Positions 54,169-62,036 of a DNA stretch of 64,000 nucleotides are shown here, one piece after another; positions within the stretch are counted from its first letter, which is position 1; the number at the start of each line of letters is the position of its first letter. The notes under the pieces are model-generated. The model was not told the DNA's origin and ran no database searches. It was given only the letters and a program-made list of their open reading frames with translations. The stretch is from an uncultured Erythrobacter sp. (lineage in GTDB: Bacteria > Pseudomonadota > Alphaproteobacteria > Sphingomonadales > Sphingomonadaceae): the NCBI RefSeq assembly GCF_947497915.1, contig NZ_CANMIJ010000001.1, positions 597,501-661,500 of the forward strand. The letters run 5' to 3'. A program made the translations under genes and the position numbers.

Positions 54169-54357
54169 TTAGTCCTGCTTGTCCCAATCGCTTGTTGCGA
54201 TTTCCTCTGGCGAGGCAGGGCGTCCTGGCACGGCATAACCATCGCCAAACCACCGGGCGAGATCGCGGTCTTTGCACCGCTTTGAACAGAACGGCGTGAA
54301 TTCTTCGGCGCGCGGTTTTCTGCAAATCGGGCAGGGTTTTTGGGGCTTTGTCGTCAT
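54169..54357 (-). CDS. yacG: DNA gyrase inhibitor YacG, zinc-binding
   Basis: CPICRKP...FCSKRCKDRDLARWFGDGYAVPG. Confidence 0.93.
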   Translation of the reverse strand: MTTKPQKPCPICRKPRAEEFTPFCSKRCKDRDLARWFGDGYAVPGRPASPEEIATSDWDKQD

Positions 54358-55316
54358 TGTGCGATTATTTGGGCCTGAGCCGCTTCGAGTGCAAGAGAGG
54401 GACTTGTTTCAATTCGCACTTCTTTGCCGGTTCGTTGAGCCAGTTCGACTAGCCATTCTTCCTTGAGCTTTGCTTTAAGCGCCGGGTGCACGGTGAGCAG
54501 CAGGATACGTCCTGCTCCCTCGGCCATTTCACCCCGACGCAAAGCCATGCGCGCGCAGGCCCCGACCCGGGAGGTGGCGAAACGTTGAAGCAAAGACGGC
54601 CCCTCAAGCCGAGCAACCAATTGCACGAAACCAAATCCGTTTATGGCGGTGCGTTCATGCGGCCAGTTCGCCAGCGCCGCTTCGAGCGCAGCATCAACTT
54701 GCTTGCGGCCCAATTTGTCCTGAATGGTCGGGAAATCGATCCCGACAGAGCCGCCAATGTCGAACCATTGCACTGCCTGAGCGATGGCGGGAACAGCTGC
54801 CAAGGCAAGTTCGCGCGGGCTGCCATCACCGTCGATGTCGATAAGGGTCATGGCCGGCGTAGTGCTGATCAACAGCGATCCGCCCGGGAAATCAATTTGG
54901 GCAGAGGAGGCCGCATCCCACACGTCTTCCCAAAGTCCCGCAGGGAATCGCGTCACGAGATCGCCGCTCGCAAATATCGAAGCAGGTGGGATATTCGGAT
55001 TGTCATCGCCGAAATAGCGCGCTTGTGCGCGTTTCAACCGGCCGCGCTCGGCAATGGCCTCACGCGTTATGATGAGACGCACATCGCTGCCTTCGGTCGC
55101 ATCGCGCGGCAGGCCGCTGGCATTGATTTCGGTACCGCAGGGGCTGAGACATAACCCGCGCGATGATCCCGCTTGGCGAGATACAATCTTGGCCATTAAA
55201 ATTGTCCGTGCGCAATCTTTGCTTAGCCAAAAGAGTTTGGCGCCGATGATCTGATCATTCTCGATAAGCAAAGCGCGGCTTTCGCCAATGCCTTCTTCGA
55301 TCTGCCAATTAGCCAA
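54354..55316 (-). CDS. Ribonuclease E/G-family protein (short form)
   Basis: FGFVQLVARLEGPSLLQRFATS; DIDGDGSPRELALAAVPAIAQAVQWFDIGGSVGIDF; resembles RNase G catalytic region. Confidence 0.78.
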   Translation of the reverse strand: MANWQIEEGIGESRALLIENDQIIGAKLFWLSKDCARTILMAKIVSRQAGSSRGLCLSPCGTEINASGLPRDATEGSDVRLIITREAIAERGRLKRAQARYFGDDNPNIPPASIFASGDLVTRFPAGLWEDVWDAASSAQIDFPGGSLLISTTPAMTLIDIDGDGSPRELALAAVPAIAQAVQWFDIGGSVGIDFPTIQDKLGRKQVDAALEAALANWPHERTAINGFGFVQLVARLEGPSLLQRFATSRVGACARMALRRGEMAEGAGRILLLTVHPALKAKLKEEWLVELAQRTGKEVRIETSPSLALEAAQAQIIAQ

Positions 55317-56389: not shown

Positions 56390-59300
56390 ATGATCCTCCC
56401 CGTCTCTCCCCGTGCGAAGTTACGCAGCACTGTATGTGCAGCGTCCGTTTGGATCGGCATTGCCGCTGTGCCTGCCTTTGCGCAGTCACAAGAGGGGGAG
56501 GCTCAACAGGAAAATACTCGCGAAGAGCCAGCCAATGAAATCGGCACAGGCTCCGGAGAAATCGTTGTCCGGGCAGAGCGGCTTCGCGGGCAATTGGATG
56601 TCGAACAAGAGCCCTTGCTCGAACTGGGTGAGGCGGAAATCGCGGCAGAGGGCGTGACCTCTATTGCTGATCTGGTGACGCAAATTAGCAACCAGACCGG
56701 TTCTGCGCGTGGCCGTGGCGGCGGCGGGCGGCCTGTGATCTTGATCAATGGCATTCGAGTCGGATCATTTCGCGAGTTTTCTAACTACCCGCCAGAAGCT
56801 TTGGCGCGGGTCGAGGTGTTTCCAGAAGAGACCGCGCAGCGTTTCGGATTTCCGCCTGATCGCCGCGTAATCAATCTGATCCTCAAAGAAAGCTACCGCA
56901 ACGCCGAAGTCGAATTCGAATTTGAAGGGCCATCGCGCGGCGGATATCATCGGCGCGAACAGGAACTGGGCTTCCTCCAGATTGCCGATGGCGGGCGTAT
57001 CAACGTCAATTTCGAAGCAAACGACACGTCATTTCTGACCGAAGACGAGCGCGGCATAATCCAAACGCCAACGTCGATCTCGGATGTCGCAGGCGATCCC
57101 GATCAGGCCGCATTTCGCAGTCTGGTATCGGACAGCCGCTCTCTTGAGGGGAATATCAGCTGGGCCAAGGCCTACATCGATAGCGGCACTTCGGTCAGCG
57201 CGAATATCAATTACACTCGCAGCGATTCCCTTTCACTTCAGGGGCTTAACACGGTTTCGCTCACCGATCCGTCAGGCGACAGCGCCCTACGGACGTTTGG
57301 TGTGGATACTCCGATCCAGCAGGCGTTCTCCAGTGACACGCTTTCCAGTTCGGGGTCACTGACCAAGCGCGTGAACGCATTCCGCCTGACGAGTTCGTTC
57401 AATGCAAGCCTGACCGAAACCGAGCAAGAGATTGATCGACGCTTTGATACGAGCGGGTTTGAGGCTGATGCATTAGCAGGGACATTCGCTCTTGATGGCG
57501 CGTTGCCGACCAGCGTGGATTCCGGCTTCGATACGGCGAATTCGCGCACCATTACGGGCAACACTCTCACCACATTGCGCGGGCCGATTGTAAACCTGCC
57601 GGGCGGGGAGCTACTGGCGACATTTGATGCGGGCTACACTTGGACCAATCTAGAGACGTCCGACACGCGCAACGTGCAAGAGACCGATCTAACGCGCGGG
57701 CAATTTTCAACCGGCGTGAACCTTGTCATTCCGATCACCAGCCGCCGCACGGGCTTTGCCGATGCACTGGGCAGTTTCACGCTGAACGTTCAGGCTGGGC
57801 TGGATGAGCTTTCCGATTTTGGCACTTTGGGTGATTACACAGTCGGCCTGACTTGGGCGCCGACGGATAAGCTGAACCTGTCGGCGACCTATATCCAACG
57901 GGAGGTTGCCCCGGCGCTTTCATCACTTGGCAATCCAGAAGTCACATTCCTCAATGTGCCCGTGTTCGATTTCACCAATGGTGAGACGGTGCTTGCTACG
58001 GTCACGACGGGCGGCAATCCTGATTTGCTCGCGGAAACGCAGCGCGACTGGAAATTCGCGGCAAACTGGCAATTACCTTTCTGGGAAAACACCCGCTTTA
58101 CGGTCGAGTATATCCGCAACCGTTCGGATGATGTGACGCGCGGCTTTCCGGTCATCTCGCCAGAGATTGAAGCAGCCTTTCCTGACCGGATTACCAGAGA
58201 TGCAGGCGGAACTCTGACCGCGATTGATCGCCGTTTCGTGACATTTGCCGAAACACGCGCAGACCGGCTTCAATTCAGCCTGTTTACGCGCGGCAGTATC
58301 GGTGCAGGCCAGCGCGGGGCCCAAGGTGGCGGGCGTCCCAGTGGCGGCGGAAGGCCGCAGGGCGCTGCATCGGGCGGCGGTGATAGCAGCACGACAGCCG
58401 CGCAATCCGGCGCAAGGCCGCAAGCGTCAGGCCGTCCTCAGGGCCAGGGCAGGCCGGCAAACGGTCGCCCCGGCGGCCCGCCCAGCGCAGAGCAGCGCGC
58501 GGCCTTCATGGAGTTTCGCACCCGCATCTGCGCCGATGATGGTCTTGATGTGCTCACCCGCCTCGTCGAAGCGGCGGAAAATGGCGAAGACTTATCTGCG
58601 ACCATCCCCGGCTTTGACGCGCAGCGATTTGAACGGCTTTTGTCGCGCGTGCGCGATGACAATGGCGATGTCGATCCAGAACGCCTCGCCGCCGTGCGGG
58701 AGCGGATTTGCAGCTTTGATCCGGCCAGCATGGGCGGACGGGGTCCCAGAGGCGAACGCGGCGGATCGCCAACAGGCGGTGAAAACGAAGCACCCGAAGG
58801 CGAGCGTCCGCAAGGCTTTGCCGCATTCCGCGCGATTGCCTGCGCAGATGACGGTGCGGCGCGTATCCGCGCTCTGATCACACGTATCGAGGCAGGTGAA
58901 GACGTGTCTGACGAGCTTCCGGGCTTCGATCCTGCGATGGCGGGTATGATGCTGGGCCGTTTGCGCGATGAGAACGGCAATATCACGGATGAACGCATTG
59001 CGGGTTTGCGCGAACGCTTTTGCTCAAGCGAGCAGGGTGCGGGCGGCCAGAATGGCCAGTCCGGCAGTCAGGCGCGCGGCGGCGGCGGGCCTCCGGGCGG
59101 CTTTAATCCGCTTGCGCGGCGTTCCTTCCAGGGGTTCCGTTACTTCCTCTCGCTCAATCACACAGTTGAGCTTGAGAATGAGATCCTGATCGCGCCGGGT
59201 TTGGCGCCGCTTGATCAGCTGAGCGGCGATGCCACCGGTGCATTTGGCTTCCCGCGCCACAGCACGCGGCTGGAGGGCGGCATTTTCGGCTCTGGCGTCG

Positions 59301-59608: not shown

Positions 59609-60423
59609 TCGAGGCTAACCTTCGGAAACAGAATGCGCTGATGACGCTTCGCTTCGAATGGCATCCACTCGCCTTCTTTCTGTGAAAGACGATCCGCGAG
59701 AGCCATCATAACCGATGGGTTCACGCCCAGACCGCAATGGCTCGCATACACTTCGATGTTCTCAAACGGCTGCGTCTCGTGGCCTTTGTGCGCGTGCTGC
59801 ACACTACCGCGCCAGTGAACAACGCCGTCGGTCTTGGTCCAGATTGATGTGGTCGGCACAGGCGGTGCGATGTCGAGCCCTTCGAACTGGCCGCCGCGCA
59901 GCTTCTCTGGCTCGTCGCCGTTAAACAGCTTGAACAGGCGCGCTGCATTGGTGTGGTTGCGATCATCGGAGATCGGACTGCCGAGGCTGATAACCTGACG
60001 CACTTTGTCCGGATGCAATTTCGCCAGCTCGCGTGCGAGCACGCCGCCAAGGCTCCAACCGATCAGCGATACTGCGCGTCCGCTCTCTTTGTGCTGGCGG
60101 GTCAATTGATGTTCGAGTTTCGACAGGAGCTCTTCGTTCACGCGAAGATTGCGTCCCGCGTCCCAGCCATGCGCGTCATAGTTCAGCCGTTTAAGCAGAC
60201 GGCGCATCGGCACGGTGGAACTGTTTGTCGCCATAAAGCCCGGCAGCGCCATGACAGGATGACCATCGCCTTTTGGCAAAGTCGCGAGCAACGGCATCAT
60301 TGCGTAAAGCGCGCCGAGTTCGAAGAAGGCGCGGCCTTCGGCGAGAGTCCAGAACCGGTTGGGCGGAACTGCTGCGGGCAGTTCTAGTCCACCGGCATGC
60401 GGGCTGGGTGCCATGCTTGCCAT
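59605..60423 (-). CDS. Alpha/beta hydrolase / lipase-like
   Basis: VSLIGWSLGGVLARELAKLHPDKVRQVISLGSPI; VMALPGFMATNSST. Confidence 0.85.
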   Translation of the reverse strand: MASMAPSPHAGGLELPAAVPPNRFWTLAEGRAFFELGALYAMMPLLATLPKGDGHPVMALPGFMATNSSTVPMRRLLKRLNYDAHGWDAGRNLRVNEELLSKLEHQLTRQHKESGRAVSLIGWSLGGVLARELAKLHPDKVRQVISLGSPISDDRNHTNAARLFKLFNGDEPEKLRGGQFEGLDIAPPVPTTSIWTKTDGVVHWRGSVQHAHKGHETQPFENIEVYASHCGLGVNPSVMMALADRLSQKEGEWMPFEAKRHQRILFPKVSLD

Positions 60424-62036
60424 TATTTCGTCTCCTTCGACTTGCGACCGATAGTTGTTGTTGGTTTGCGCTTTGCAGGCTTTTTGCGCGCCGTACTTGT
60501 CTTTGCTGGCGCCGCCTTTTTCGCAGGTGTTGTTTTTCTAGCAGGGGCTTTCTTAGCCCGCGCTGTACGCGCCGCAGGCTTGGCTGCAGCGGGCGTTGAC
60601 TCAGGCTTCGCATCCACCGCTTTTGCCGCAGCGAGCAGCTCGTCAAAGCTTTCCTGCAGGCATTCCGAATAAAACTCGGGATCAGGCATAATGTCGCGGC
60701 AGGCGGTGAAGCTTATATAGGCCTCATCAACGTAACTTTGCACGACGTGCGCGAGGCCCAGTCCGTCCGTCAGACAGATCAGTGAGAGTGCCATGCTCTC
60801 CATGCGCGCGCCAGACGAATAGATGTGAACCGGCGGGCCGGGCACATTCGTCACAACCGTGTTGAACGGCATGGCGAGTTTGTGCGCGATGCTGACCCGG
60901 CTGAACAATTGCGCGCCCAGAGCCATATAGAGCAGCGGGTTGACCTTGCTGACTTCCGTCATTGTCCGCGCGCCCAGAGCGTTCGTCATGGCTTTGGAAT
61001 TGCTGGTCTGGCCAAAGACGTATTCGAGCCGTTCTTTTGGATCGGAAAGGTGCGTGCCGAGCGGCGCAACCATTGCTGCGACCTGATTGCCCATATCGCC
61101 TTTCTCTTCCTTACCGCGGACAGAGATTGGCGCCATGGCTGTCATGGTCGTTTTGGGCAGATCGCCCTTTGATGTGAGATATTTGTTCAGCGCCCCGCCA
61201 ATAATCGCGATGGCGACATCGTTGACCTTGGCATCAGGCAGCAGCGCGCGGATCGCCTTTACATCTGCGAGCGGGAAACTTGCCCCTTCGACAACGCGGT
61301 GGGCCGAAATTGAGCGGTTAAAACGGGTGCGCGGTGGCACCATGTCCGTGCTCAGTTTGAACTCGCGCGTTACCAGCCCTTTGATCGCGCTCGCGACACC
61401 GGGAACAGCCTGAGCTGCGACTTGCGCCTGCTTGAATGGGTTCAGGATCGCATTGACGTAGGATTTGCCCAGCAATTCGACGGGGCCAGGCACTTTTTCC
61501 GGCTTCCACTCATCGGGGGTGTTCGGCGCGGCGGTGCTGGGCGTGACTGTATGGAGAGCCTCCATCAGATCGATCCCGCTCATCCCGTCAATCGCGGCGT
61601 GGTGAACTTTTGTTACGAAGGCAAAACAGCCCGGCGGGTAATCGCGGACGTTGTCGAGTCCCTCGATCACCGTGAATTCCCAAGGCGGGCGGTTCAGATC
61701 GAGCGGGCGGGCGTGGATACGCGCCGCCTGAATGCACAACTGACGCCAATCGCCCGGTTTGGGCAGCGCGACGTGGCGGACATGATATTCTAGGTCGAAA
61801 TCAGGATCCTCGATCCAATAAGGATAATCGAGGTCAAACGGCACCCGTACAAGGCGTTGGCGCATCGTCTTGGAAAGCTGCATCCGGCTTTCGATGAAGC
61901 CAAGAATGTCTTTAAACCGAACGAAGCCGCCCGGGGCGGTTTCCGGATTGTAAATCAAGACGCTGCCGATATGCATCGGCGAATTTGGCGATTCCATCGC
62001 TACAAACGATGAATCCATGCCCTGCAATTGGCGCAA
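60423..62036 (-). CDS. Wax ester synthase / diacylglycerol acyltransferase (WS/DGAT) with Lys/Ala-rich C-terminal tail
   Basis: MRQLQGMDSSFVAMESPNSPMHIGSVLIY; KVHHAAIDGMSGIDLM (HHxxxDG); VVTNVPGPPVHIYSSGARM. Confidence 0.93.
   Translation of the reverse strand: MRQLQGMDSSFVAMESPNSPMHIGSVLIYNPETAPGGFVRFKDILGFIESRMQLSKTMRQRLVRVPFDLDYPYWIEDPDFDLEYHVRHVALPKPGDWRQLCIQAARIHARPLDLNRPPWEFTVIEGLDNVRDYPPGCFAFVTKVHHAAIDGMSGIDLMEALHTVTPSTAAPNTPDEWKPEKVPGPVELLGKSYVNAILNPFKQAQVAAQAVPGVASAIKGLVTREFKLSTDMVPPRTRFNRSISAHRVVEGASFPLADVKAIRALLPDAKVNDVAIAIIGGALNKYLTSKGDLPKTTMTAMAPISVRGKEEKGDMGNQVAAMVAPLGTHLSDPKERLEYVFGQTSNSKAMTNALGARTMTEVSKVNPLLYMALGAQLFSRVSIAHKLAMPFNTVVTNVPGPPVHIYSSGARMESMALSLICLTDGLGLAHVVQSYVDEAYISFTACRDIMPDPEFYSECLQESFDELLAAAKAVDAKPESTPAAAKPAARTARAKKAPARKTTPAKKAAPAKTSTARKKPAKRKPTTTIGRKSKETK

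Follow-up and report, generated by a model that had tools for sequence, protein, structure and literature searches.

A putatively disulfide-stapled repeat domain, present in zero to two copies, in a predicted periplasmic turn of a TonB-dependent receptor from Erythrobacter

Where TonB-dependent receptors have an extra periplasmic domain, it is known as an N-terminal, signal-carrying one, and the turns that join barrel strands 16 and 17 of these receptors are normally short. The window analysed here, a stretch of 64,000 nucleotides from an uncultured Erythrobacter sp., encodes a receptor in which this connection holds an insertion of 278 residues (638-915), made up of low-complexity linkers and two repeats. 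An earlier note on this DNA had read the insertion as a surface-exposed module within an extracellular loop, possibly for ligand capture or adhesion. On which side of the outer membrane does the insertion lie, what kind of domain is the repeat, and what could it do there? In this study, we addressed these questions by computation, through the fold of the receptor and the repeat, the side of the membrane, the pairing of cysteines, purifying selection and the modularity of the insertion across related genomes.

The receptor itself is of a known kind (Table 1). Its full-length AlphaFold2 (AF2) model, based on an alignment of 32 orthologs, comprises a plug and 22 strands and ends in Phe; the quality of the model is moderate (mean pLDDT 69, pTM 0.55), with most of the strands used for topology above 70. 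Foldseek assigned the model a PfeA/FepA-like fold (E 2e-18), the best solved relatives being PfeA, FepA, Cir and BtuB. The top matches are TonB-dependent receptors, in agreement with the barrel recognized earlier. The Pfam Plug profile (PF07715) gave a sub-threshold match (21.6 bits, with the cut-off at 23.9; E 3e-4), and I58, V60 and R64 of the TonB-box-like stretch, which was picked by eye, are invariant in the 32 orthologs. The FepA/PfeA transporters (PDB 6i2j, 1fep) share with this receptor the 22-strand barrel and plug and the C-terminal Phe and, as judged by eye, a TonB-box-like N-terminus. They differ in sequence, with an identity of about 10%, and in the strand 16-17 turn, which across the family of this receptor has about 24-281 residues and often carries a folded module.

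Table 1. Position of the TonB-dependent receptor gene and its parts in the window
Feature	Position	Strand	Basis
TonB-dependent receptor gene, 1072 aa	56390..59608	+	ORF
Signal peptide, residues 1-31, end AFA/Q	56390..56482	+	sequence reading; helix 6-24 in model
TonB-box-like stretch EIVVRAER, residues 57-64	56558..56581	+	sequence reading
Plug domain, residues 62-165	56573..56884	+	AF2 model; sub-threshold Pfam match
Barrel strand 16, residues 617-637, toward periplasm	58238..58300	+	AF2 model
Linker 1, residues 638-698, Gly/Arg/Gln/Pro-rich, predicted disordered	58301..58483	+	AF2 model and composition
Repeat 1, residues 699-777, four-helix domain, Cys714 and Cys774	58484..58720	+	alignment, AF2 models
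Linker 2, residues 778-802	58721..58795	+	AF2 model and composition
Repeat 2, residues 803-881, same domain, Cys818 and Cys878	58796..59032	+	alignment, AF2 model
Linker 3, residues 882-915	59033..59134	+	AF2 model and composition
Barrel strand 17, residues 916-933, outward	59135..59188	+	AF2 model

The composition of the insertion agrees with the earlier note. Positions 58301-59130 translate in frame, and the two repeats align without gaps, with 33 identical residues over the 76 amino acids first noticed (43%) or over the 79 used here (42%); for the 79, the maximum reached in 20,000 shuffles was 21 identities. The linkers, described as rich in Gly, Arg, Gln and Pro, consist of G, P, S, Q, A and N to 68-84%, and pLDDT stays below 50 across residues 640-697 of linker 1. 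Mean net charge is -3.2 for the repeats and +3.4 for the linkers. A single repeat, modelled with AF2 from an alignment of 63 repeats, is predicted with pLDDT 90.0 and pTM 0.76 to form four helices (2-15, 20-32, 46-56 and 65-77).

Two cysteines, at positions 16 and 76 of the repeat model, lie at the ends of helix 1 and the last helix. The sole Cys outside the repeats of the window receptor is Cys16 in the signal peptide, and the mature protein contains only Cys714/774 and Cys818/878, both pairs exactly 60 residues apart. The pairing proposed from these two repeats extends to the family: each of the 92 repeats examined has exactly two Cys, none occurs in the turn of copy-free orthologs, and cysteines of the turn thus occur in pairs only. 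Each repeat is likely to be held by one disulfide, which would be made by the periplasmic oxidation machinery. The distance between the two Cys is exactly 60 in every repeat read from the genus and ranges from 37 to 64 amino acids across the family; the short form of the repeat retains the helix-Cys, LPxxhxxRL, xDGxhD and the Cys-ending helix. Of 80 orthologs, 78 have no Cys beyond residue 40 other than those of the repeats. The remaining two (L136 and L137) are the only ones with an additional Cys pair, located in the plug/barrel and again even in number.

The repeat matches no described domain, as the earlier note had supposed. Profile searches against Pfam, NCBIfam and PDB sequences gave no consistent relative; isolated Pfam E-values reached 3e-4, but none of these matches involved more than 3 of the 41 members, the families were unrelated, and they were read as chance. 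Foldseek comparison of the repeat fold with the PDB gave nothing better than E 1.2 (prob 0.13), and the best value against viral models was 0.87. Neither by sequence nor by fold does the repeat fall into a known domain family of Pfam, NCBIfam or the PDB, and a search of the open-access literature brought up no account of a module of this kind, by which the domain in the periplasmic turn counts as undescribed. It makes a clean candidate both for founding a new domain family and for solving a structure.

Several weak, non-significant matches of the repeat were EF-hands (calmodulin, calpain), and the earlier note had compared its D-x-N-G-x-(V/I) segment loosely with a Ca-binding loop. The motif is real. 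In the loop before the last helix, the Gly at EF position 6 is invariant (92/92), the preceding residue (position 5) is D/N in 98%, position 8 is I/V, and position 9 is mostly D and in most repeats D/N. With the EF-hands of calmodulin, centrin and calpain the repeat shares a helix-loop-helix with a D/N-G-x-I/V-D loop; unlike them, it is predicted to be disulfide-stapled and lacks the ligand positions 1 and 12. None of the 92 repeats has D, E or N at position 1, and 1% have an acidic residue at position 12; because of these two positions the repeat was not classed as an EF-hand. A periplasmic EF-hand-like Ca2+ sensor would agree with the helix-loop-helix, the motif and the weak matches; in view of the missing ligand positions, the Pfam searches without an EF-hand match and the poor Foldseek values, we consider it highly improbable, and calcium binding by an EF-hand loop was set aside.

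The side of the membrane was read from the barrel model. As its barrel-like flanks had suggested, the insertion joins strand 16 to strand 17, which is an even-to-odd connection. Since even-to-odd connections are periplasmic, the model places the insertion in the periplasmic turn T8 and not in an extracellular loop. The nine other even-to-odd connections of the model have 2-14 residues, and the odd-to-even connections mostly have 20-42, with three of 3-6. A count that starts at the C-terminal Phe and uses only the six strands downstream of the insertion leads to the same side, so that strand parity agrees from both ends of the barrel. Because the full-length model is of moderate quality and the linkers are disordered, no packing of the repeats on the barrel can be read from it. 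The full-length structure prediction that the earlier note had itself proposed as a test therefore points away from its extracellular location, and surface ligand capture or adhesion loses its support along with that location.

Selection separates the repeats from the linkers. Against the closest relative, identity is 96% and 94% in the repeats, 84% in the barrel plus plug and 67% in the linkers; the corresponding dN/dS values are 0.015 and 0.014, 0.054, and 0.205, which are rough because dS is near saturation, while their ranking among close relatives is clear. This contrast in conservation fades with distance, and in the comparison with L006 it is the barrel that is better conserved. We take the repeats to be folded units with a function and the linkers to be spacers. 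A functionless low-complexity expansion that happens to contain duplicated sequence would account for linkers that vary freely and for copies that come and go; however, the dN/dS contrast with the linkers, strong purifying selection on the repeats, their better conservation than the barrel among the closest relatives, the invariant Cys pair and the confident fold make it extremely improbable. The same conservation bears on the idea of a surface loop whose module would bind ligands or mediate adhesion outside the cell. Such receptors do have long extracellular loops, and stapled helical domains of varying copy number would suit the outside, but most surface-exposed variable loops are not better conserved than the barrel, as the repeats are among the closest relatives, and strand parity from either barrel end indicates the periplasmic side. 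We regard a surface module as very unlikely.

The repeat is restricted to one lineage and varies in copy number, two features that the earlier note had raised. In a sample of the host's GTDB family, the repeat profile matches 91 of 301 genomes and 29 of 96 genera. Across a sample of the order, the matches listed come from 79 genomes, every one of them in this family. A class-wide sample gave two weak matches outside it, which lie, by sequence reading, inside a GlnE-like adenylyltransferase and an iron-sulfur oxidoreductase; being at chance level and in unrelated proteins, they were rejected as signs of a wider spread. A search of plasmids with the repeat gave no match. Full-strength matches sit in receptor-sized open frames or in contig-cut pieces of such frames, and the domain therefore appears to be confined to this receptor.

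Eighty orthologs, picked to span the family and not drawn at random, carry two copies (34/80), one copy (24/80) or none (22/80), always at T8, and the strand 16-17 connection ranges from about 24 to 281 residues across the family. In copy-free orthologs it is a Gly/Arg-rich turn of 24-109 residues without Cys. A tree of the plug and barrel of the 80 orthologs requires at least 19 changes in copy number and at least 9 in presence or absence; because of these frequent changes, the module is dispensable for the core function of the receptor. Parsimony with three distant paralogs as outgroup puts absence at the root, on a tree in which several deep branches are weakly supported, and the module was therefore probably gained and then often lost. 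The repeat alignment is not deep. A tree of the repeats alone was poorly resolved. In the clade of the window receptor, each copy is most like its counterpart in other species, the first like their first and the second like their second. An origin of the second copy as a recent duplicate in this clade was rejected on this grouping. The single repeat of one relative (L028) is copy-2-like. Since nature offers zero, one and two copies at the same genomic locus, what the domain does can be tested by removing the gene in environmental bacteria. Four orthologs from the same genus (L125, L126, L033 and L034) lack repeats and have as their turn a Gly/Arg/Pro-rich linker of 30-67 residues; they are natural controls.

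The C-terminal domain of TonB docks on the periplasmic face of the receptor. In FhuA, a figure of the FhuA-TonB structure marks turns T8 and T9 next to TonB (review PMC11658791). From the long disordered leashes, the small acidic domains beside basic linkers, the tandem copies and the position of T8 near TonB, we infer docking, and on balance we lean towards a lineage-restricted, disulfide-stapled periplasmic docking module that hangs below the receptor near its TonB side. Turn T8 of this single-locus receptor would have acquired one or two stapled helical domains on flexible linkers. At the periplasmic mouth, these tethered, mostly acidic domains would dock a periplasmic partner by fly-casting and so hold or recruit it; the partner would be either TonB or another protein, and orthologs that lack the domains would do without it. 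It is possible, though doubtful, that the stapled domain, which would have a fold without a representative in the PDB and would fit interchangeably into T8 in zero, one or two copies, goes further and controls energy coupling or the choice of partner from the periplasmic side. If true, this would be a modulation of TonB-dependent receptors distinct from that by the N-terminal signalling domain.

The STN domain lies N-terminal to the plug. In FecA- and HasR-type receptors, this STN/secretin-like signalling domain is an extra periplasmic domain that docks a periplasmic partner (see PMC3984077). The Erythrobacter repeat differs from the STN of FecA and HasR in that it sits in a barrel turn, is all-helical and has a Cys pair. 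A conserved modular domain on a barrel turn would be another regulatory entry point, at the TonB-docking face.

Periplasmic elements with a function are found at the same barrel face in AlgE, whose turn is also numbered T8 (PMC4118822), and in the 18-strand barrel Wzi, which has a helical bundle there (PMC3791409). By analogy with the AlgE T8 P-loop or the Wzi bundle, the Erythrobacter domains might close the barrel at its periplasmic mouth and act as a gate or second plug. AlgE is an alginate-export porin whose T8 is a gate loop and not a tethered stapled domain, and the Wzi bundle is N-terminal and folded into the barrel, whereas the Erythrobacter repeats form an insertion within a turn and are held by loose tethers. 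The lumen of the receptor already holds the N-terminal plug domain, disordered linkers of 25-61 residues fit a tether better than a gate, and the domain is absent from many orthologs, all of which makes a gate unlikely. The long flexible linkers could also reach the cell wall, where the tethered domains would bind peptidoglycan and fix the receptor; no partner gene would be needed for this, which would explain gain and loss. Against such an anchor, the repeats have no OmpA, LysM, SPOR or other Pfam match, and since they are net acidic, their binding to peptidoglycan would need to be specific. We consider a wall anchor quite unlikely and retain the docking module as the preferred reading.

The receptor gene is a syntenic ortholog at a fixed locus across the family of the host. 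In the genus Erythrobacter, it has on one side an rng-like gene (read by eye), maf (Pfam) and infA (by eye), and on the other side usually genes for a WS/DGAT acyltransferase, an HI0933-like flavoprotein and an alpha/beta hydrolase; none of these neighbours points to a partner. The maf neighbour is kept in most other genera sampled, whether the domain is present or absent, and full-strength repeat matches adjoin maf and the rng-like gene wherever the flank was read. The rng-like protein beside maf (54354-55316, minus strand) has 320 amino acids, is syntenic across the family and reads like a short relative of ribonuclease E/G, with no Pfam match at E 1e-5. The WS/DGAT acyltransferase (60423-62036, minus strand) carries, past its Pfam domains, a histone-H1-like tail of about 60 residues rich in Lys, Ala, Pro and Thr, and this tail is present in the Erythrobacter orthologs at lengths of about 7-80 amino acids.
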